A stretch of DNA of 64,000 bases from Gemmatimonadaceae bacterium (GTDB taxonomy: Bacteria > Gemmatimonadota > Gemmatimonadetes > Gemmatimonadales > Gemmatimonadaceae). The DNA is taken from positions 124,001-188,000 of the forward strand of contig DASXKV010000025.1 of assembly GCA_036496605.1 (NCBI GenBank), in the 5' to 3' direction. Under the pieces are notes generated by a model. That model saw only the letters and a program-made list of their open reading frames with translations, was not told the DNA's origin and made no database searches. The position numbers were made by a program, and so were the translations under genes. Positions 51,671 through 60,384 of this stretch are shown here, one piece after another; within the stretch, counting starts at the first letter, position 1; each line of letters begins with the position of its first letter.

Positions 51671-51907
51671 ATGGCTGCCGACGAGGATCCATCCAGGCGC
51701 TTGCGCGCGCTGCAGCGTACGGCCAGACACGTCATCGTCGACGGTGCGCTCTGGCTGGTATTTGAGCTACCTCCGCTGTACGACCGCAGGCAGAGACCTT
51801 CACTCGTTTTCGAAAGTGAGACAGCCATTCGTCGTGTGCGGGATTATCCGGCGAATTGGCGCTCGCTTCGCGATGATGAGCTGTTCGCGCTGAGTTGGAA
51901 TATCTGA
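51671..51907 (+). CDS. 78-aa protein with the W/RR/W domain
   Basis: 78 aa. Residues about 15-75 match the pattern also seen in proteins at 58640, 59025 and 59788: an opening RHVIVDGALWLVFEL, LVFESETAIRRVRDYPANWR, then L-x-D-D-E-L-F-A-L. No signal peptide and no known family. The ribosome-binding site is weak. A site of the MarR-type palindrome is 117 nt upstream, so this copy may belong to the stress set, unlike the others at 59 kb. Function unknown. Confidence 0.6.
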   Translation: MAADEDPSRRLRALQRTARHVIVDGALWLVFELPPLYDRRQRPSLVFESETAIRRVRDYPANWRSLRDDELFALSWNI

Positions 51908-52247
51908 GGGTCGATGGGCTTCGCGTTAGGCGCCTGGCGAGCGAATACTGAATCGGTGTTGGCGCGCTCAGCCCCTCGATTTGATCGGCGCCTCGAATAG
52001 GATGGACCTTCTCGCTCGAGCAGCTCGGCTCGCCACAGGTCCTCGGCACGCCGGCTGATCGCCTGTCTGGGAAATCGCTCGTCGCTGAACGACGACGCGC
52101 CGTTGTTCAGCCCAGTCCGATCGCATGAAGATTCCGGTGCGACGTCGGTTTCCAGAAATCGGTGCTGTTGCCCCCGAATTGGAGCACTCTATGCATACGC
52201 ACCTCGACCCGGTCTACCAGTCTAGTCGTCGTCATCGGAGGTGCAAA
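51908..52247. other. non-coding stretch
   Basis: 340 nt with no credible gene. It holds one CGTTAGGC word (51924) and, at its end, the GGAGGTG ribosome-binding site of the lipoprotein gene. I saw no clear promoter or hairpin. Confidence 0.5.
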
Positions 52248-52832
52248 ATGAAATGGCAGTATATAACGACGTTGGCCGCAGTGGTCGTCATCGGCGCCTG
52301 CAGTGAGAATCCGACGGCACCAACCAAGCGCGCCGTGCCCAGTCCGTCGATGCAAGGGATCGGCGGCACCGGCATCAAGGTCGACATCGTTCCCACCGTG
52401 ACGCTCCCGCTAGGACTCGGCGGTACGATCAACATCCATCAGGCGGTCGTCACCAACTTCGCGTTGGTCGAGAATACGGTCGGCCAGATCGTCGGGCTCG
52501 ATGTTACGGGAACGCTATCCGGAACCACGGTGGACGTTCTCGGTGGCGTTGTTGGAGTGAATGCCGACCCCTTCACGGCCGAGGCCAGCATAACGAGCTC
52601 GGGAATGGGGCAGTGCAACCTTGTCACACTCGACCTGTCGAGCCTCAACCTGAACGTCCTCGGACTCGTCAGCGGTACGGTGCCGCTGAACATTACGGCG
52701 AAGGGGTCCGGCGCCGTTGGCAGCTTGCTGTGCAATCTTGGCAATGCGCTCAGCGGCCTCGCATCTGGTGGCACAGCCAGCCCCAACGCCCAGAGCCTCG
52801 TGAACTCACTCAACGGCGCAATCGGCGGCTGA
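52248..52832 (+). CDS. lipoprotein of unknown function
   Basis: 194 aa from ATG at 52248 with GGAGGTG upstream. Signal sequence and lipobox: MKWQYITTLAAVVVIGAC, Cys18. The mature part is rich in Gly, Val, Thr and Asn with alternating hydrophobics (VPTVTLPLGLGGTINIHQAV, LDVTGTLSGTTVDVLGGVVG), consistent with a secreted or surface beta-rich protein. Two Cys may form a disulphide (GQCNLV and LLCNLG). No family recognised. A strong hairpin follows the stop. Confidence 0.72.
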   Translation: MKWQYITTLAAVVVIGACSENPTAPTKRAVPSPSMQGIGGTGIKVDIVPTVTLPLGLGGTINIHQAVVTNFALVENTVGQIVGLDVTGTLSGTTVDVLGGVVGVNADPFTAEASITSSGMGQCNLVTLDLSSLNLNVLGLVSGTVPLNITAKGSGAVGSLLCNLGNALSGLASGGTASPNAQSLVNSLNGAIGG

Positions 52833-52848
52833 CGTAGTGACCTCCACG

Positions 52849-52873
52849 ACTGACCGATCTTTCGTCGGTCAGT
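52849..52873. terminator. hairpin between convergent lipoprotein and carbonic anhydrase genes
   Basis: Perfect 9-bp stem ACTGACCGA / TCGGTCAGT with a 7-nt loop, followed directly by an imperfect longer hairpin (GCGCCGC ... GCGGCGC, about 52874-52925). Both could end transcription from either side. Confidence 0.65.
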
Positions 52874-52952
52874 GGCGCCGCCACGTCGCTCCTTCTTTGG
52901 GAAGTTGGAGCCGACGAGCGGCGCTTGGGACTCCGGATGATTCGCCTCGCGC

Positions 52953-53627
52953 TCAGAACAGATTCACTCTGCCGGTAGCCAAATCATAGGTTCCCGCGAT
53001 GACCTTGAGGCGCGCGTTATCGGTAGCGCTGCGGATAACAGTTGAGGAAGTACGCAACAGGTCTGCCTGCAAACGGGCGTTGCCGTTGATTGCCTCGTCG
53101 AGGTTTCCGTTCGAACGCTCCACAGCGGGACGGATATGCGCATACAGCGAGCTGATTTGCCCAGGCGCGTCGTCGCTTTTCATTGCCGCTTTCACCGCGC
53201 CGCAGCCGGTGTGGCCAAGGACCAGGAGCGCGCGCACTCCAAGCACCGCGACCCCATACTCGAGACTCGCAATGATCTCGGCGGTCGCGAAGTTTCCCGC
53301 GATTCGTGTCACAAAGATGTGACCGATCGTTTGATCGAATATCAGCTCGACGGGTACGCGAGAGTCAGCGCACGCGAGGACCGCCGCAAATGGAGTCTGC
53401 TTGTCGACCGTATGCTGTTTGAGAACACTCAAGTCGTGCTCGATCGACGTCAATTGATTGGCGGCGAATCGCTGATTACCGGCCAACAGCTCCTGAATCG
53501 CCTCGTCGGGTGACAAAGGCGCGAGTGCAGCGCCGAATGCGGGTGTTCGCCAACGCGCGGGTGGCGCCGTCGAGGCGATCAATGCAGTGACCATCGCGTG
53601 CTGCAGAAACTCGCGGCGGCTGCCCAT
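52953..53627 (-). CDS. Tat-exported beta-class carbonic anhydrase
   Basis: 224 aa. MGSRREFLQHAMVTAL starts like a Tat signal (S-R-R-E-F-L) with a weak hydrophobic stretch. Zinc ligands and catalytic residues of the beta class are present: Cys86, Asp88 and Arg90 (ACADSRVP), and His139 and Cys142 (GHTGCG). It interconverts CO2 and bicarbonate. Exported beta-carbonic anhydrases are less common than cytosolic ones and could help in pH control or CO2 capture at the cell surface. It is convergent with the lipoprotein gene across a hairpin region. Confidence 0.88.
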   Translation of the reverse strand: MGSRREFLQHAMVTALIASTAPPARWRTPAFGAALAPLSPDEAIQELLAGNQRFAANQLTSIEHDLSVLKQHTVDKQTPFAAVLACADSRVPVELIFDQTIGHIFVTRIAGNFATAEIIASLEYGVAVLGVRALLVLGHTGCGAVKAAMKSDDAPGQISSLYAHIRPAVERSNGNLDEAINGNARLQADLLRTSSTVIRSATDNARLKVIAGTYDLATGRVNLF

Positions 53628-53718
53628 GCTGTAGAACTCTCACCAAGCAGCGACGTCTCACCATAGGCCGTTCGTCCAAGCACCGGCCGGCCGGGTGCGC
53701 ACCCATGACGGCCTTTGT

Positions 53719-53925
53719 CTAGGGAATGTGGCCCTCGGCTGCTTGCCGACTCGCCCAGAGGATCTCGTAGGTCTGTTGCTGCTCGTACTTGCGCTGTACC
53801 CGCGCGACGCGCTCAACGAGCTGTTCAAAATCCTGGGCAGACAGAAAGTCGCAGACTGGTCGCAAGCGGTGCGAAATCTCGCGCTTCAACTGTTCCACCT
53901 GATCCACTTGGGAGCCGTGCGGCAT
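53719..53925 (-). CDS. 68-aa protein of unknown function
   Basis: 68 aa, ATG at 53925 with a weak GGAG upstream. The sequence is mostly a charged alpha-helix (VDQVEQLKREISHRLRPVCD and FEQLVERVARVQRKYEQQQ), suggesting a small coiled-coil or regulatory peptide. It has one Cys and no TM helix. No family recognised. It is real on codon and composition grounds but is short enough that this is not certain. Confidence 0.45.
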   Translation of the reverse strand: MPHGSQVDQVEQLKREISHRLRPVCDFLSAQDFEQLVERVARVQRKYEQQQTYEILWASRQAAEGHIP

Positions 53926-54115
53926 CGTGCGCTCCGGGAACGAGGAGGCGTCGCCAGAAGCGCCCAGCGCAAGAACGTGCTTGCGGGCTGGTGTCAGTAA
54001 ACCCCGCTACGCTTGTTTCAACCTATGCGGGGTGTCCCCTCAGCGTAAGTGTACGATTCCGCACACGCCAACTCACTGCTTCGATATCAAGCAGGCCCGT
54101 CCGAGCGGATACCGG

Positions 54116-54844
54116 TCAGTGGCTGAGCGGTTGAGACAGGCCGCCGTAGCTATTCCGAATGATCTGGTAGCAGGCGCAAGCCGCCTCTTCGAGACCCTCG
54201 CGATCGATGATCTTCACGCGGCCATGCGTGTACTCGATGAGCCCGGCCTTCTGCAACATGCTGGCGGCAACCGTAACACCCGCGCGACGGACACCGAGCA
54301 TGAGAGAAAGAAATTCGTGCGTCAGTGGGAACTCATCGGCGGCTACTCGGTCGTGCGTCATCAGCAACCAGCGCGCGCAACGCTCTTCAATAGAATGAGC
54401 CCGGTTGCATGCCGACGACTGGGAGACCTGGCTCATATAGCTTTGCGCGTAACGAAGGAAGAGTCCACGCAATGCGGCGCTGTCCGCGACTGCCTTCTGA
54501 AATGCCGCTGCGGTCACGCGCACTCCGCCGTCGGCCACCTGAATGATCGCCTTCGCTGGCTCACGATCGACGCCGAAGAGCAAAGGGAGCCCGACAAACC
54601 CTTCGCTTCCCACGGTGCCCACTTCCACGCTCGTGCCATCGCCGACCGGTGCAATGATGGACGCAACGCCACGAATGAGAAACAGCACGTGTGTGATTGG
54701 ACCATTGGCTTCGTAGAGAACGGTACGAAGCTTCAGATCGACCTTCTCAGCGTCTTCGAGGAGCTCTGAATACTCCTCGGCATCGAGCGCACTGAGCAAG
54801 GAATTGCGCCATGGCTCGGTCGATCCGGACGACCTGGATTGCAT
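54116..54844 (-). CDS. Crp/Fnr-family transcriptional regulator
   Basis: 242 aa. Cyclic-nucleotide-binding-like domain at about 20-145: VLYEANGPITHVLFLIRGVA and SVEVGTVGSEGFVGLPLLFG; the cAMP-contacting R-S/T pair is not obvious, so the ligand is unknown. HTH_Crp domain at about 150-235: FPLTHEFLSLMLGVRRAGVT with recognition helix VTVAASMLQKAGLIEY. No N-terminal Cys cluster, so it is not an Fe-S Fnr. It lies opposite a 340-nt region with repeated TTGTACG, which could be its target. Confidence 0.9.
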   Translation of the reverse strand: MQSRSSGSTEPWRNSLLSALDAEEYSELLEDAEKVDLKLRTVLYEANGPITHVLFLIRGVASIIAPVGDGTSVEVGTVGSEGFVGLPLLFGVDREPAKAIIQVADGGVRVTAAAFQKAVADSAALRGLFLRYAQSYMSQVSQSSACNRAHSIEERCARWLLMTHDRVAADEFPLTHEFLSLMLGVRRAGVTVAASMLQKAGLIEYTHGRVKIIDREGLEEAACACYQIIRNSYGGLSQPLSH

Positions 54845-55185
54845 GCAAGTCTCCTGAGTCTGCCATGCGAGAGAACTGGAATCCAGTCTGACGGCAGGAG
54901 GGAGGGACTCGCCTTAATCCGGAGGCCTGATGTCGAAAGCTGATGTGCGCGTCGCGCCGACGTGCGTCTTCACGCTGACGCAAGGTAGCGGCGAACGCGC
55001 CTGAAAATGAGGAAATCCCGGATTGTACGAACGGCATCCGCGCGAAAGAAAATTGTACGCAAACGTACGAATCGCCATCCTTAAACGCATGGCGGATATG
55101 CTGTTGCGCTGCTCATGGAAAACGAGTACGATGACAACGTCTCCCCTGCAGTTTGAATCGACCTGTCTATTGTGGAGCCGTTCAG
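54845..55185. promoter_or_regulatory. intergenic region with TTGTACG repeats
   Basis: 341 nt without a gene. TTGTACGAA at 55023-55031 is repeated as TTGTACG-CAAA-CGTACGAA at 55053-55071, the latter an inverted repeat. GGAG precedes the ATG at 55186. It holds the divergent promoters of the Crp-like regulator and the 112-aa protein. Confidence 0.5.
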
Positions 55186-55524
55186 ATGGAATCGGTTCGA
55201 TCCGGGAACGATGTCGCGGGCATTTCGCGTGAGAAGCCCAATCTCAGCGCGGAGGGAGTAGCTGTTCTCCACGCTGCCTTGGCAGAAGAGCTCGCGGATC
55301 GCGATGTCACTTCATCGGCTGCTCTGAAGGCGGCGCTGAGCCAGCTCTGTGACGAGGCGAAGGCAAAGTATTGGCCCCCCGAGGTGCTCCTGATCGCGTT
55401 CAAGACGGCGCTCGAAACGGTTCCTGCAGTGCGACGCCTAACGCGGGGGCCGGACCGTGACGAGTTCGTGGCTCGCCTCGTATCGCTGTGCATCGAACAG
55501 TATTTCCGCGATACGAGTCGTTAG
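55186..55524 (+). CDS. 112-aa protein of unknown function
   Basis: 112 aa from ATG at 55186 with GGAG 8 nt before; an upstream ATG at 55153 would add 11 residues. Mostly alpha-helical: VAVLHAALAEELADRDVTSS, LSQLCDEAKAKYWPPEVLLI, LVSLCIEQYFRDTSR. No known domain. A CGTTAGGC word spans the stop codon. Its upstream region has TTGTACG repeats and it is divergent from a Crp-like regulator, which may control it. Confidence 0.55.
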   Translation: MESVRSGNDVAGISREKPNLSAEGVAVLHAALAEELADRDVTSSAALKAALSQLCDEAKAKYWPPEVLLIAFKTALETVPAVRRLTRGPDRDEFVARLVSLCIEQYFRDTSR

Positions 55525-55531
55525 GCCAGCA

Positions 55532-58192
55532 CTACGACAAGACGTTCCGCGGATCCGCCGCTGTCGCCTGGCGTGCCGGCACGTAGGCCGCGAGGACTCC
55601 GACGCCCCACATCACGAGTGCCGTCACCACGAGTACCGCGGGCTCCATCGGCTTCACATGGAAAAGAAGTGACGTCATCACTCGTGACAGCGCTGCCGCG
55701 CCGATCACGCCGGCGGCCAGCCCTGAGCTGGTCACGATGAGCCCCTGACGCAGCACCATCGACCGGATAGCCGATGGGCTCGCGCCGAGTGCCATGCGAA
55801 TTCCGAACTCGCGCGCTCGCAAGCGGACAGCGTACGCGAGCACGCCGTACAGACCAAGGAGGGCGAGCGCGATGGCGACGCCCGCGAAAGCGAGCAGCAG
55901 CCGTAGCGTGAACGTCCGCGTTGCGTTGCCTCGGCCGAGGACGTCGTCCAGCGGCGCCGGGTGATACATGACGAGCAGGGGATCGATCCCGCTAACGACA
56001 CGACGTGAGCTTGCCGCCACGGCGTCGACATTGCCCATCGTCGACACGACTTGGGTGAGCGCCCAATTGCGATCGCCCGCGAATTGCCGGTGCGCGTGAT
56101 AGAGCGTCGGCTCGACGTGGCCCTCGATGTCGAGTGCGACGTCGGCAACGACACCGATGACGGTCCACGTTATGCCACCCGTGCGCAGCTGCTGCCCGAT
56201 CGGATCGACGCCAGGAAAAAGCAGTTGTGCGGCCGATTTGCTGATCACCACACGCGGCGGAGCGTGCGCGTCGTCACCCGCCTCGAAGAGCCGGCCCGCC
56301 AAACGAGGAACGCCGAGCGCCGCGAAGTAATCGCCGGAGATGACGCGCTGCTCCAGCGATGAGTGATCGATCTTGGTGTTGACCAGCGGACCGGAGAGCG
56401 GCCGAGTGCCCCAGGAATTGTAGGAACCGGTCGCGGGCAGCCGCGATGTTCCACCGGCGGCGCGAACGCCAGGCTCGCGCTCGATCGCTGCCGCCAGATC
56501 GTCGTAGAATGCGGCGCGTGCGGTCGAGTCGTAGCGGCTCCCAGGCAAGTGTGCCTCGAACGTGAGCACGTCGGCAGAGCGAAAACCAAGGTCCACACGC
56601 CGCAGCTGCGCGAAGCTCGAGAGCAAGAGACCCGCACCGACGGCGAGCACGAACGCCAGGGCCACCTGCGCCGCCACGAGCGCTCCACGAAGTCGTACCT
56701 GTCCGCGACCGCTCGACGCGCCGCGCCCTTCGCCGCGCAATACGTCTCCCGGACGTGTCCGTGCGGCGCGCACCGCCGGCGCGGCACCGAAGATCAGGGC
56801 GCAGAGCGTCGAGAGTGCGATGGAAAACATCAGCAGACGTGGATCCAAAGCCAACGACGAGAGCCGCGGAATGTTGCCGTCCCCCAGCCTAACGATGGCC
56901 GCCATGCCCGCCCGTGCCACGGCGAGGCCGGCGACGTCGCCGACGAGCGCGATGACGATGCTCTCGACGAGCATCTGACGAACGATGCGAGCGCGCTGGC
57001 CACCGAGTGCCGTGCGGACCGCGAACTCACGCTGCCGTTGGGACCCACGCACGAGCATCAGCGTCGCAATGTTCACGCAGACGATGAGCAGGACGAGCGC
57101 GACGGCGCCGAGCATGATCTCCAGTGCGGTGGCCGTCGGTGCGACCATATCGTCCTTGAGCGGATCGAGTCGCGCGCGCGTGTCGCGCGCGTCCGGATAC
57201 TTGACGCCAAGCCGGGTCGCGAGCGCGGTCAGCTCGGCTTGCGCTGCGCCGATCGACAATGTCGGCCGCAATCGGGCGATGACCGTGAGATAGTGATTGG
57301 TCGCGTTCGACGGATCACGGCCTGGATCGAGATTCTCCGGCGTCCACGCATCGGCGCGCGGGACGAGCGGATCGACGAAGCTCGCCGGCATGACGCCCGC
57401 AATGCGATACGACGCACCATCCATGACGATCGAGCCGCCAATCGCCGAGGGATCGCCGCGCAACTCCTCCTGCCAGAGGCGATGGCTGATCACCGCGATG
57501 CGCGATGGTTGTACCGTCTCGTTCATGCCACCGTGTTCGTCATCGCGCGAGAATGCCCGGCCGAGTGCGGGACGCACACCAAGGACGTCGAAGTAGTCCG
57601 CGCTCACGGGCAGCACGCGTATGCGGCGCGCCCGATCCCCACGCCCGATGTCGGCGCCGACGGCGTCGTAGGTCATGACTGCGGCGACCGACGCGAACGA
57701 CGACATGCCGTCGCGATACTCCAGAAAGTGCACCGGCGTGACGAAGCCGTGGTCGTTAGGCGCGCGCACGTCGGTGTTGTAGAGGCGCACGAGGCGGCCC
57801 GGTTGTGAGTACGGAAGCGGCGCGAGTAGCACGGTGTCGACGGCGCTGAAGACCGCGGTCGCACCACCGATCCCGATGGCGAGGGTGAGCACGGCGACGG
57901 CGGCGAAGACCGGGTTTCGTCTCAACGTACGAAAAGCGAAACGAACATCGCCGGCACCGTCGAAGAACGCGCGCGTGCGGCGCGCGTCACGCACGTCCTC
58001 CTTCACGCGCTCGACGCCGCCGAGCGCCATGACCGCCTGGCGATGCGCCTCGGCGTGGCTCACTCCCGAGCGCCGGCGATACTCCTCCTCCATCTCAACG
58101 TGGACGCGAAGCTCCTCCTCGAGCTCGCGATCTTCGGCGCGGCGAAAGACAATCGCCCGAAGGCGCAGCAGCAGATCGGATAGCATGCTCAT
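55532..58192 (-). CDS. ADOP-family ABC transporter permease with N-terminal regulatory region
   Basis: 886 aa from ATG at 58192, overlapping the PadR stop (ATGA). Residues 1-75 form the extra helical N-region of this subtype (DRELEEELRVHVEMEEEYRR), then a TM helix at about 90-115, MacB-PCD domain, FtsX block, and a second copy, ending YVPARQATAADPRNVL. This is the PadR-linked ADOP type, where the N-region is thought to interact with the regulator. The ATPase is missing, as in the other two ADOP genes of the window. Substrate unknown. Confidence 0.9.
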   Translation of the reverse strand: MSMLSDLLLRLRAIVFRRAEDRELEEELRVHVEMEEEYRRRSGVSHAEAHRQAVMALGGVERVKEDVRDARRTRAFFDGAGDVRFAFRTLRRNPVFAAVAVLTLAIGIGGATAVFSAVDTVLLAPLPYSQPGRLVRLYNTDVRAPNDHGFVTPVHFLEYRDGMSSFASVAAVMTYDAVGADIGRGDRARRIRVLPVSADYFDVLGVRPALGRAFSRDDEHGGMNETVQPSRIAVISHRLWQEELRGDPSAIGGSIVMDGASYRIAGVMPASFVDPLVPRADAWTPENLDPGRDPSNATNHYLTVIARLRPTLSIGAAQAELTALATRLGVKYPDARDTRARLDPLKDDMVAPTATALEIMLGAVALVLLIVCVNIATLMLVRGSQRQREFAVRTALGGQRARIVRQMLVESIVIALVGDVAGLAVARAGMAAIVRLGDGNIPRLSSLALDPRLLMFSIALSTLCALIFGAAPAVRAARTRPGDVLRGEGRGASSGRGQVRLRGALVAAQVALAFVLAVGAGLLLSSFAQLRRVDLGFRSADVLTFEAHLPGSRYDSTARAAFYDDLAAAIEREPGVRAAGGTSRLPATGSYNSWGTRPLSGPLVNTKIDHSSLEQRVISGDYFAALGVPRLAGRLFEAGDDAHAPPRVVISKSAAQLLFPGVDPIGQQLRTGGITWTVIGVVADVALDIEGHVEPTLYHAHRQFAGDRNWALTQVVSTMGNVDAVAASSRRVVSGIDPLLVMYHPAPLDDVLGRGNATRTFTLRLLLAFAGVAIALALLGLYGVLAYAVRLRAREFGIRMALGASPSAIRSMVLRQGLIVTSSGLAAGVIGAAALSRVMTSLLFHVKPMEPAVLVVTALVMWGVGVLAAYVPARQATAADPRNVLS

Positions 58193-58542
58193 GCGCCCTC
58201 CGACACCCAGAGGCGGACACCCATGATGTGATCGATCGCCGCGGACGCGCGCTCCCACGCCGTGTGCTGCGTGGTGAGCGTCCGTCGGCCGGCAGGGGTG
58301 AGCTCGTAGTAACGCGCGCGCCGCCCGTTCTCGGTCACGCGCCAGCTCGTCTTCAACCAGCCGCGCCGGCGCATGCGCACGAGCGCGGGGTAGAGGGATC
58401 CCTGGGTGACGAGGAAGACATCGCGCGACATCCATTGAATGCGATGCGCGATTCCCCAACCGTGCATGGGATCGAGGGCGAGCGTCTTGAGAACGAGCAT
58501 CTCCAGCGTTCCCTGGAGCAGCTCGACGCGGTCGTCGGACAC
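58189..58542 (-). CDS. PadR-family transcriptional regulator
   Basis: 117 aa. MSDDRVELLQGTLEMLVLKT is the classic PadR opening; the winged helix continues MHGWGIAHRIQWMSRDVFLV and GSLYPALVRMRRRGWLKTSW, then the wing VTENGRRARYYELTPAGRRT. It is the typical repressor that controls ADOP permeases; its stop overlaps the permease start by 4 nt, so both are translated together and the regulator probably controls its own operon. Confidence 0.92.
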   Translation of the reverse strand: MSDDRVELLQGTLEMLVLKTLALDPMHGWGIAHRIQWMSRDVFLVTQGSLYPALVRMRRRGWLKTSWRVTENGRRARYYELTPAGRRTLTTQHTAWERASAAIDHIMGVRLWVSEGA

Positions 58543-58639
58543 CGTGGGCTCCTTCAGATGGTCTGAAGGTAGACAGCCCCGGTGCCGAAAAGGTTCATAG
58601 CGATTTCTTGAAGCCGCGCCACGAAAGGCGCCGGGCGTG

Positions 58640-58846
58640 TCAAGCGGCGGCGCTGATCAACCGTGCCAGTCCTTTCGGCGCCATTCGCTGCCACTGCCAG
58701 CCGACCGTTATCGACACCGGCTCCGAGATCGACGGTGTCGTGCACGTGAGCACGACGTCCTGACCTTGTCGCTCCTCGCCCTTGCCGACGACTGCGATCG
58801 TCCACACACGTCCTTCCTCGTCTGTCACCGTGCGGTTGCTCGCCAT
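58640..58846 (-). CDS. 68-aa protein, divergent copy of the W/RR/W domain
   Basis: 68 aa from ATG at 58846, with a GAGG at suitable spacing. It opens NRTVTDEEGRVWTIAVVGKG, fitting R-x-x-x-D-x2-G-x2-W, and continues with VVLTC and TVGWQWQRM, ending L-x-R-L-I, but lacks the RR-x-P block of the others. The residues fit a small beta fold. Position is downstream of the other copies (59025 and 59788) on the same strand. No known family; function unknown. Confidence 0.5.
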   Translation of the reverse strand: MASNRTVTDEEGRVWTIAVVGKGEERQGQDVVLTCTTPSISEPVSITVGWQWQRMAPKGLARLISAAA

Positions 58847-59024
58847 TGGGCCTCACTCGTTGGTGAAACGACAGGTGCTGCACGGACGACACTCTGTCAA
58901 TCAGACGACCAACGCGGCGTTTCGTCGCGGCCGCCAGTGGCGCCAGCAAACGCGCCGAGGAAGTTCCACGCCGCGAGGAAGCTTCCAGTGATCGATCCAA
59001 CGAGCGATGCAGTCGCGAGCGCCG

Positions 59025-59657
59025 TTAGGCTGGCGGATCGTTGTAGCGACGACGCGGCGTTTCCGGTGTGTATCTCGTAATCTCCCGCGGCGCCGCGTGT
59101 CGCAGTAGGTCGATCAAGTGGTCGTCCGGGAGGTCCGGCCAGTCGCGCGGGAACGGCTGGAGATCGATGGTGCGCGCTCCGGCGGTGAAGCGGAGCACTG
59201 CACCAACTGCGATGTCCGAATGCGGTGCGATGGCAGCGCTCCAGAGTCTCCCGCCGGGATATCGGAAGCTCCGCACAACCGTAAGATCCGTGATGTCGGC
59301 CTTCTCCTCGATGTCGTCGCTCACCTCGATGTCGTCGCTCACCTCGAGTGCGGGCGTCTTCGATCGTGAAGCCTCTCTGTCCATCACGGTTTCGCCCGAG
59401 GCTCTTCGTGGCCGTACTGGCTCGGATTCGCGGAGAAGAGCGCGCAGTGCAAGCTCGTCTATGCTCTCCCAATCGCGGGGAAACGGACAGAGCCGTCGTT
59501 TCTCGTTACCAGCGGTCGTCTCGAAGACCAGCCAGCCCAGCTGATAACAGTCCGCCAGGTAATCCTCGGCGCGCGTGACTGGGTGTATCGACTCCGGAAG
59601 AATGCACCAGACCCGCCACGACCTGCCCTCTTGGTCAAGAAATTCGCGCACTGCCAT
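59025..59657 (-). CDS. two-domain protein with tandem W/RR/W domains
   Basis: 210 aa. Domain 1 (about 2-76): VREFLDQEGRSWRVWCILPE, YLADCYQLGWLVFETTAGNE, KRRLCPFPRDWESIDELALR. Domain 2 (about 130-198): VVRSFRYPGGRLWSAAIAPH, LRFTAGARTIDLQPFPRDWP, then D-L-P-D-D-H-L-I-D-L-L. The two copies are clearly related to each other and to 51671, 58640 and 59788. Between them a charged linker holds a tandem 18-bp DNA repeat (E-V-S-D-D-I twice). No signal peptide or TM helix. No known family; a protein-protein or ligand-binding role is a guess only. Confidence 0.65.
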   Translation of the reverse strand: MAVREFLDQEGRSWRVWCILPESIHPVTRAEDYLADCYQLGWLVFETTAGNEKRRLCPFPRDWESIDELALRALLRESEPVRPRRASGETVMDREASRSKTPALEVSDDIEVSDDIEEKADITDLTVVRSFRYPGGRLWSAAIAPHSDIAVGAVLRFTAGARTIDLQPFPRDWPDLPDDHLIDLLRHAAPREITRYTPETPRRRYNDPPA

Positions 59658-59787
59658 CGTCGCGCTCTCATCTGGTCGGTTCCTGCCCCGCTCCGAGAAT
59701 TGCCTAACGCAACCGGCGTGCTCAAGCGCGGCCTCCGACTGCGGCGTCGCTCACAAATCGGACGAAAGCTGGCGGCGATGCGGAGAG

Positions 59788-60384
59788 TCATTGCAAAGGC
59801 GGATGGGACGCGTCCGGACCCTCCTTGAGGCGGCGGCGTTCTGGAGCATTGATCGCTTGGTCGAGCAATTGACATAGTTCGGGTTCTTTCAATTCAGTCC
59901 ACCGTTCTGGTTGCTTCGGTAGACGGCGGCGCGCGTTGCTCTCGAGCGCCTCGAAGCAAATCCAGCCCTTGTGAAACTCACCGAGATACCGCTCGGCAGT
60001 CCGGCTGCGCCGTGCCAGGCCCGGCGTGACCGGCCAGGCGCGCCAGAGTTGGCCCTCGGCGTCACGGAACTCACGCACCTTGGGTACCGGTTCGCCTGTC
60101 GCGTTAGGGTCCGCGCCGGTGGGCTGCGTGATTGGCATGGTTGAAGCCGTCCGTTCTGACTTGCGTTGGTCGATGTGACGCCGCAGCGCGATCGTCTGCT
60201 CCGCCGCGACGGCGGCGGCAAGCAGTGAATCCTCCAGGCGCCGGATCTCCGAAGTGCTCTCCGTCGAGAGGCCGCTTGCTTCCGCCTCGCAGGCCTCGCG
60301 TAAGCGACTTCTCAATGCACCCTCTGCGTCGCGAAGCACGGGCTCGAGTGGGTCCGTAGCGGATTTCTCGTCAGATGGCGACAT
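59788..60384 (-). CDS. protein with N-terminal helical region and C-terminal W/RR/W domain
   Basis: 198 aa. Residues 1-95 are helical and charged (LRDAEGALRSRLREACEAEA, LEDSLLAAAVAAEQTIALRR). Residues about 105-178 carry the domain: VREFRDAEGQLWRAWPVTPG, YLGEFHKGWICFEALESNAR, RRLPKQPERWTELKEPELCQ. It is the copy closest to the 59025 first domain. It is divergent from the histidine kinase gene (240 nt), so the two could be regulated together. Function unknown. Confidence 0.62.
   Translation of the reverse strand: MSPSDEKSATDPLEPVLRDAEGALRSRLREACEAEASGLSTESTSEIRRLEDSLLAAAVAAEQTIALRRHIDQRKSERTASTMPITQPTGADPNATGEPVPKVREFRDAEGQLWRAWPVTPGLARRSRTAERYLGEFHKGWICFEALESNARRRLPKQPERWTELKEPELCQLLDQAINAPERRRLKEGPDASHPPLQ

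Follow-up and report, generated by a model that had tools for sequence, protein, structure and literature searches.

A small undescribed domain expanded in Gemmatimonadaceae: predicted fold, genomic contexts and a putative binding role

Domain copies in the window

The window (the whole stretch of 64,000 nucleotides that was analysed) comprises positions 124001–188000 of contig C25 of a Gemmatimonadaceae genome (termed G000; 5.97 Mb, 70 contigs). Open reading frames are present at positions 51671, 58640, 59025 and 59788, the coordinates given in the initial annotation, where they were described as four proteins with five copies of a shared domain. Three of these proteins carry four domain copies: one in 51671, two in 59025 and one in 59788. 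The family features are a hairpin with FxDxxGxxW, a hairpin with GWLxFE and RRLxPxPxxW, and a C-terminal helix. They are displayed by 59788 and the first copy of 59025, and in divergent form by 51671 and the second copy of 59025. The window copies are ordinary members of the family.

51671 (positions 51671–51907, forward strand) encodes a single-domain protein of 78 aa, with an N-terminal helix followed by a domain core at about 51725–51898 (profile match, i-Evalue 1.7e-12). It had been described as a shorter copy, and it proves to be of a shorter form, termed type B. The type B profile (A2) aligns with the type A profile (A1, built from twelve copies) over 51 columns (hhalign 96%, E = 1e-9), and this places 51671 in the family.

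59025 (positions 59025–59657, reverse strand) encodes a protein of 210 aa with tandem domains, termed type C. Copy 1 lies at about 59427–59654 and copy 2 at about 59094–59276, and the two domain matches have E-values of 9.7e-25 and 1.4e-10. The tandem arrangement proposed earlier is borne out for the divergent copy 2 by a profile–profile comparison (A13 against A1, probability 96%, E = 2e-9, 66 columns) and by the predicted fold described below.

59788 (positions 59788–60384, reverse strand) encodes a protein of 198 aa, termed type D, in which a helical module (about 60154–60354) is fused to one domain copy (about 59854–60078; domain match 2.6e-20). A search of the whole genome with 59788 recovers 59025 (E = 2.3e-10) and a copy on contig C51 (E = 7.7e-16), far beyond chance.

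The fifth proposed copy did not stand. 58640 (positions 58640–58846, reverse strand; 68 aa) is not a demonstrated member of the family, as hhalign aligns 17 columns with a probability of 50% instead of the whole domain, and the sequence is without the GWLxFE and RRLxPxPxxW parts. An ortholog in genome G048 (58% identity) keeps features that are absent from the domain; none was seen at the corresponding locus of the congener G200. The view of 58640 as a degenerate copy was dropped on the basis of the short alignment and these foreign features.

Family size and distribution

The genome of the window has about 40 domain copies: 21 strong copies in single, tandem or fused form (A1, E below 1e-15) and 18 of type B (A2), 51671 thus having 17 companions. 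The total is an estimate, since a few weak matches may be double-counted or false. With this many copies across the genome, the window is not a special cluster. The forms seen are a single domain, a single domain with a long loop, type B, the tandem form (type C) and the helical module with a domain (type D).

Of 200 genomes sampled from the phylum, 40 (in 18 of 93 genera) have an A1 match at E ≤ 0.01, a patchy distribution; about half of these 40 have just one or two copies each, many of them distant. Type B is found in 18 of the 200. The window's own family, the Gemmatimonadaceae, accounts for most copies (22 A1 matches in the genome of the window, 17 in G196 and 12 in G144). A scan of genome contigs across phyla with a narrower alignment (A5), restricted by its patterns, gave three relatives among the 80 candidate stretches listed, all in Gemmatimonadota. 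Searches of viral contigs and phages for the domain gave no match, and plasmids a single match at chance level (E = 0.9).

No family member matched Pfam, NCBIfam, PHROGs or PADLOC below E = 0.05, the best values being 0.08 and above. PADLOC and PHROGs gave no sign of a defence or phage origin, a search of PDB sequences showed nothing significant for the domain, and a literature search found no relevant report on it. The initial annotation had recognized no named family and had suggested an expanded, lineage-specific domain; both suggestions agree with these searches. As judged from sequence comparisons, this is a real, lineage-expanded and undescribed domain whose named relatives, among the matches listed, are solely in Gemmatimonadota.

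Predicted fold

AlphaFold2 models were made from alignments of 10–11 rows composed of window sequences and related loci. The model of 59025 (ten rows) has a mean pLDDT of 77.7 and a pTM of 0.48. Most of both domain cores is near pLDDT 90 or above; confidence is poor in the linker, in keeping with the low pTM. Both copies show the order strand–strand, strand–strand, helix, and copy 1 has an additional helix in the loop. The model of 51671 (eleven rows; pLDDT 79.6, pTM 0.66) displays an N-terminal helix, then four strands and a helix. 51671 and the two copies of 59025 are thus predicted to share one fold, and the unrelated folds that would have counted against a common domain were not seen; the two models are not fully independent because the 51671 alignment included rows of other types. 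In these models the domain is predicted to consist of about 55–80 residues plus a variable loop, with two beta-hairpins forming a four-stranded sheet, followed by one helix.

Foldseek and VIA searches of the PDB with both models gave matches at noise level throughout (Z no higher than 4, Foldseek E of 0.5 at best), and viral structures, searched by Foldseek with the 59025 model, likewise yielded no match above noise. The lack of a significant structural match does not establish a new fold. Topoisomerase I (6pcm: Z 4.0, rmsd 3.0, 60 aligned) and PURA (8cht: Z 3.2, rmsd 4.5, 53 aligned) are both among these noise-level rows, the former tied with unrelated rows. The PUR rows as a group (VIA Z at most 3.2, Foldseek E at best 3.4) are tied with unrelated folds. 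Both models match the PUR order of four strands and then a helix, a very common arrangement. The likeness to PUR and topoisomerase I C-terminal repeats, resting on such matches, is only a lead.

Selection, conserved residues and the variable loop

Five ortholog pairs gave dN values of 0.14–0.23 and dS values of 1.3–2.2. The dN/dS ratios are about 0.09–0.16, and are rough since dS is near saturation. 59025 is 78% identical to its ortholog in the congener (dN 0.14, dS 1.56); the values for 59788 are dN 0.23 and dS 1.58. To judge from these substitution patterns, the domain proteins are real and under purifying selection, which does not tell which function is selected. The patchy distribution and a copy number that ranges from 0 to about 40 could also be read as the turnover of near-neutral orphan genes of little function, spread by duplication. 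However, this reading is largely refuted by the selection test, with dN/dS at about 0.1 in all five pairs, and gene neighborhoods are conserved across genera; it is the least probable of the explanations considered here.

The alignments have invariant R, F, D, G, W, P, GW, RR, P, W and L. The conserved columns (aromatic, glycine, proline and arginine) contain no recognizable catalytic set. The charge of the family is near neutral, with a median pI of 6.2. In those copies that a pattern could parse (59 of 124), the loop between strands 2 and 3 is 10 to 49 residues long. In the 20 longest loops arginine makes up 26% of residues, and there are 66 RR pairs compared with 41 expected from shuffled sequences, most of them after E or D.

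The main rival to a protein-binding module is one that binds nucleic acid. The domain would then resemble PUR or topoisomerase I C-terminal repeats, holding single-stranded DNA or RNA on the open face of the sheet against aromatic and arginine residues, with the [E/D]RR loops adding contacts. The arginine content of the long inserts is in favor of this, as are the tandem copies (also a feature of PUR proteins), the shared order of four strands and a helix, and the recurrence of PUR repeats and mycobacterial Topo I C-terminal domains among the structural matches. These matches, however, are the noise-level rows given above, sequence searches gave no match of the domain to PUR repeats, and the net charge is about zero. 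Binding of nucleic acid is on this evidence unlikely.

Gene neighborhoods

Neighboring genes were taken from a simple codon-usage caller, and their names (PhoU, Pit, CheR, etc.) were read from the sequence and are not database matches.

Type C and type D genes adjoin one another in the window, at two loci of G200 (C11 and C112, the latter being L080), on C51 of the window's own genome, and in G048 and G216. The adjacency spans three genera (g1, g15 and g105), with an orientation that varies by locus. In G216 a type D gene lies between two type C genes; in G218 one copy is left in the tandem gene; and in G144 and G177 the type D gene adjoins a single-domain gene. The helical module has eight matches, in five of the 200 genomes, and seven are in one open frame with the domain. 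The eighth (G048:C142) is a stand-alone protein of 78 aa. On C51 the order of parts is reversed, with the domain first and the helical part second.

Some other observations were made near these genes. At window positions 55532–58542 there is an ABC-type permease (ADOP-like) with a PadR-like regulator; a similar pair lies by the 59025 ortholog of the congener, is 33%–41% identical, and probably does not represent the same genes. A receiver-like protein adjoins a type D gene at L189 (5521–6165). Its C-terminal part has DxxGxxWxVY and [E/D]RR repeats and is possibly a distant relative of the domain fused to a receiver, although it is below the profile-search threshold.

Small genes also recur near type B genes. 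Window positions 51671–55524 and locus L110 (C25:80000–90000) have four small genes in common: a type B protein, a helical protein of 62–68 aa, a protein of 112–131 aa with the motif LC.EA...PPE.LLIAFK.ALE..P, and a Crp-like regulator (54116 and its paralog). The two sets resemble a cassette of small, lineage-specific proteins that has been duplicated. A small family with the motif LLQR.VI.RL..AG...A is found near type B genes at L090 (8296–8598), L106 (3245–3511) and L111 (5261–5521). A protein of about 135 aa, perhaps XRE-like, is beside pairs of single-domain and type B genes in two genomes (L080, 5629–6030; L090, 7539–7949).

Three groups of paralogs have recurring neighbors. On contig C4 of the window's own genome, a short copy adjoins a phosphate-uptake operon and a gene for a PhoB-like regulator. 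The copies most closely related to it are in G140 and G156 (E = 4e-15 for G156) and lie beside a Pit-type transporter with a DUF47-like partner; a glycosyltransferase and a PAP2-like gene are close to all three loci, which represent three genera. In another family of the class, a distant relative present as a single copy (hhalign 95%) has as neighbors citrate synthase, isocitrate dehydrogenase, an acyltransferase, ETF-QO, leucyl aminopeptidase, YicC, guanylate kinase and the omega-subunit, a set that varies in part and recurs in several genera. The third group is located between MetH and an acyl-CoA dehydrogenase in two genomes of one genus. This suggests that some paralogs are tied to local pathways; many copies are without a recurring neighbor.

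Such metabolic surroundings (phosphate uptake, the TCA cycle, MetH), together with a constant core and a variable loop, would also suit a sensor in which each paralog binds a metabolite or ion and reports to the local pathway. But no recognized output domain was found fused to the domain, the family shows no association with kinases or receivers (see below), and the core is small, with no evident conserved polar pocket in the alignment. A sensor of this type is improbable, more so than the binding of nucleic acid.

Kinases and receivers

The initial annotation placed the domain with a PAS histidine kinase or the MarR regulon, as a sensor or adaptor. A kinase gene does begin close by in the window, and a tandem gene on contig C32 is beside CheB/CheR-like genes, in the congener as well. 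Histidine-kinase ATPase matches number 84 in the genome, and receiver matches 86. Proximity was assessed by comparing 35 family positions (a few type B positions being hand-entered and approximate) with control positions displaced along their own contigs; 79 of the kinase matches and nearly all receiver matches entered the comparison. A histidine kinase lies within 5 kb of 4 of the 35 positions (4.5 expected, p = 0.61) and a receiver within 5 kb of 5 of the 35 (4.4 expected, p = 0.44). There is no excess of either near the 35 positions at 2, 3, 5 or 10 kb.

The 59025 ortholog of the congener keeps its 59788 partner. Other genes come after the pair, one of them receiver-like at a distance of about 1.5 kb, and no kinase is present in the 2.2 kb before the contig end. 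The link to the kinase was rejected on these two grounds: proximity is at the level of chance, and the pair in the same genus is without a kinase in those 2.2 kb. A signaling adaptor of the PAS kinase or the MarR regulon is very unlikely, while an adaptor role in a general sense is possible.

Proposed role

An adaptor or binding role, here considered putative, is the most likely one for the domain. The explanation preferred, held tentatively, is a non-enzymatic protein-binding module whose paralogs would serve local partners. The lack of a catalytic set, the near-neutral charge and the variation of the loop are the basis for a module of this kind. It is further favored by the large number of copies in one genome, the predicted fold common to 59025 and 51671, the low dN/dS, the adjacency of type C and type D genes, and the paralogs with recurring neighbors. 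The helix would cover one face of the sheet, leaving the other, with conserved aromatic and arginine positions, free for binding; the exposed face is proposed from strand alternation. The choice of partner would depend in part on the loop that joins strands 2 and 3, which has 10 to about 50 residues and in some copies many [E/D]RR repeats. Each paralog may have its own local protein to bind and modulate, and 59025 and 59788, with relatives that remain adjacent, may form a complex with each other. Against a protein-binding module, the conserved residues may be purely structural, and many copies are without a recurring neighbor.

A wider form of this proposal is a phylum-specific regulatory module, in which dozens of paralogs per cell would each be connected with an operon of their own, among them those for phosphate uptake, TCA and methionine synthesis. 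Specificity would come from the variable [E/D]RR loop, and the tandem and helix-fused proteins would form a hub. This is speculative and slightly less probable than the sensor. If true, control of this kind at the protein level would be without a described parallel.

A single bacterium has about 40 genes of a family that is unnamed in any library searched. Lineage-specific expansions of orphan domains are already known as a kind; the present one is large, selected and confidently folded in prediction. The recurring, identifiable neighbors of some paralogs provide direct handles on function in a poorly studied phylum, and a curated profile would let annotators recognize the family.

Comparison with known systems

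MbtH-like proteins (PF03621) are very small and tryptophan-rich, with a sheet and a helix, as is the domain. The best match of the MbtH profile is to one of 20 members at E = 0.11, which is chance level, and no MbtH chain is among the PDB sequence matches.

The C-terminal repeats of topoisomerase I (6pcm, 6cq2) are also composed of a sheet and a helix and are among the top structural rows. Unlike these repeats, the domain is found outside any topoisomerase and displays no sequence match to them; copy 2 alone was matched, at noise level.

PUR repeats (PurA; bacterial Pur-alpha, e.g. 3nm7) differ from the domain in that the latter is near-neutral, has a variable loop, is encoded mostly by single-domain genes and is without a sequence match to them. 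What the two have in common is four strands followed by a helix, occurrence in tandem, and a recurrent, weak structural match.
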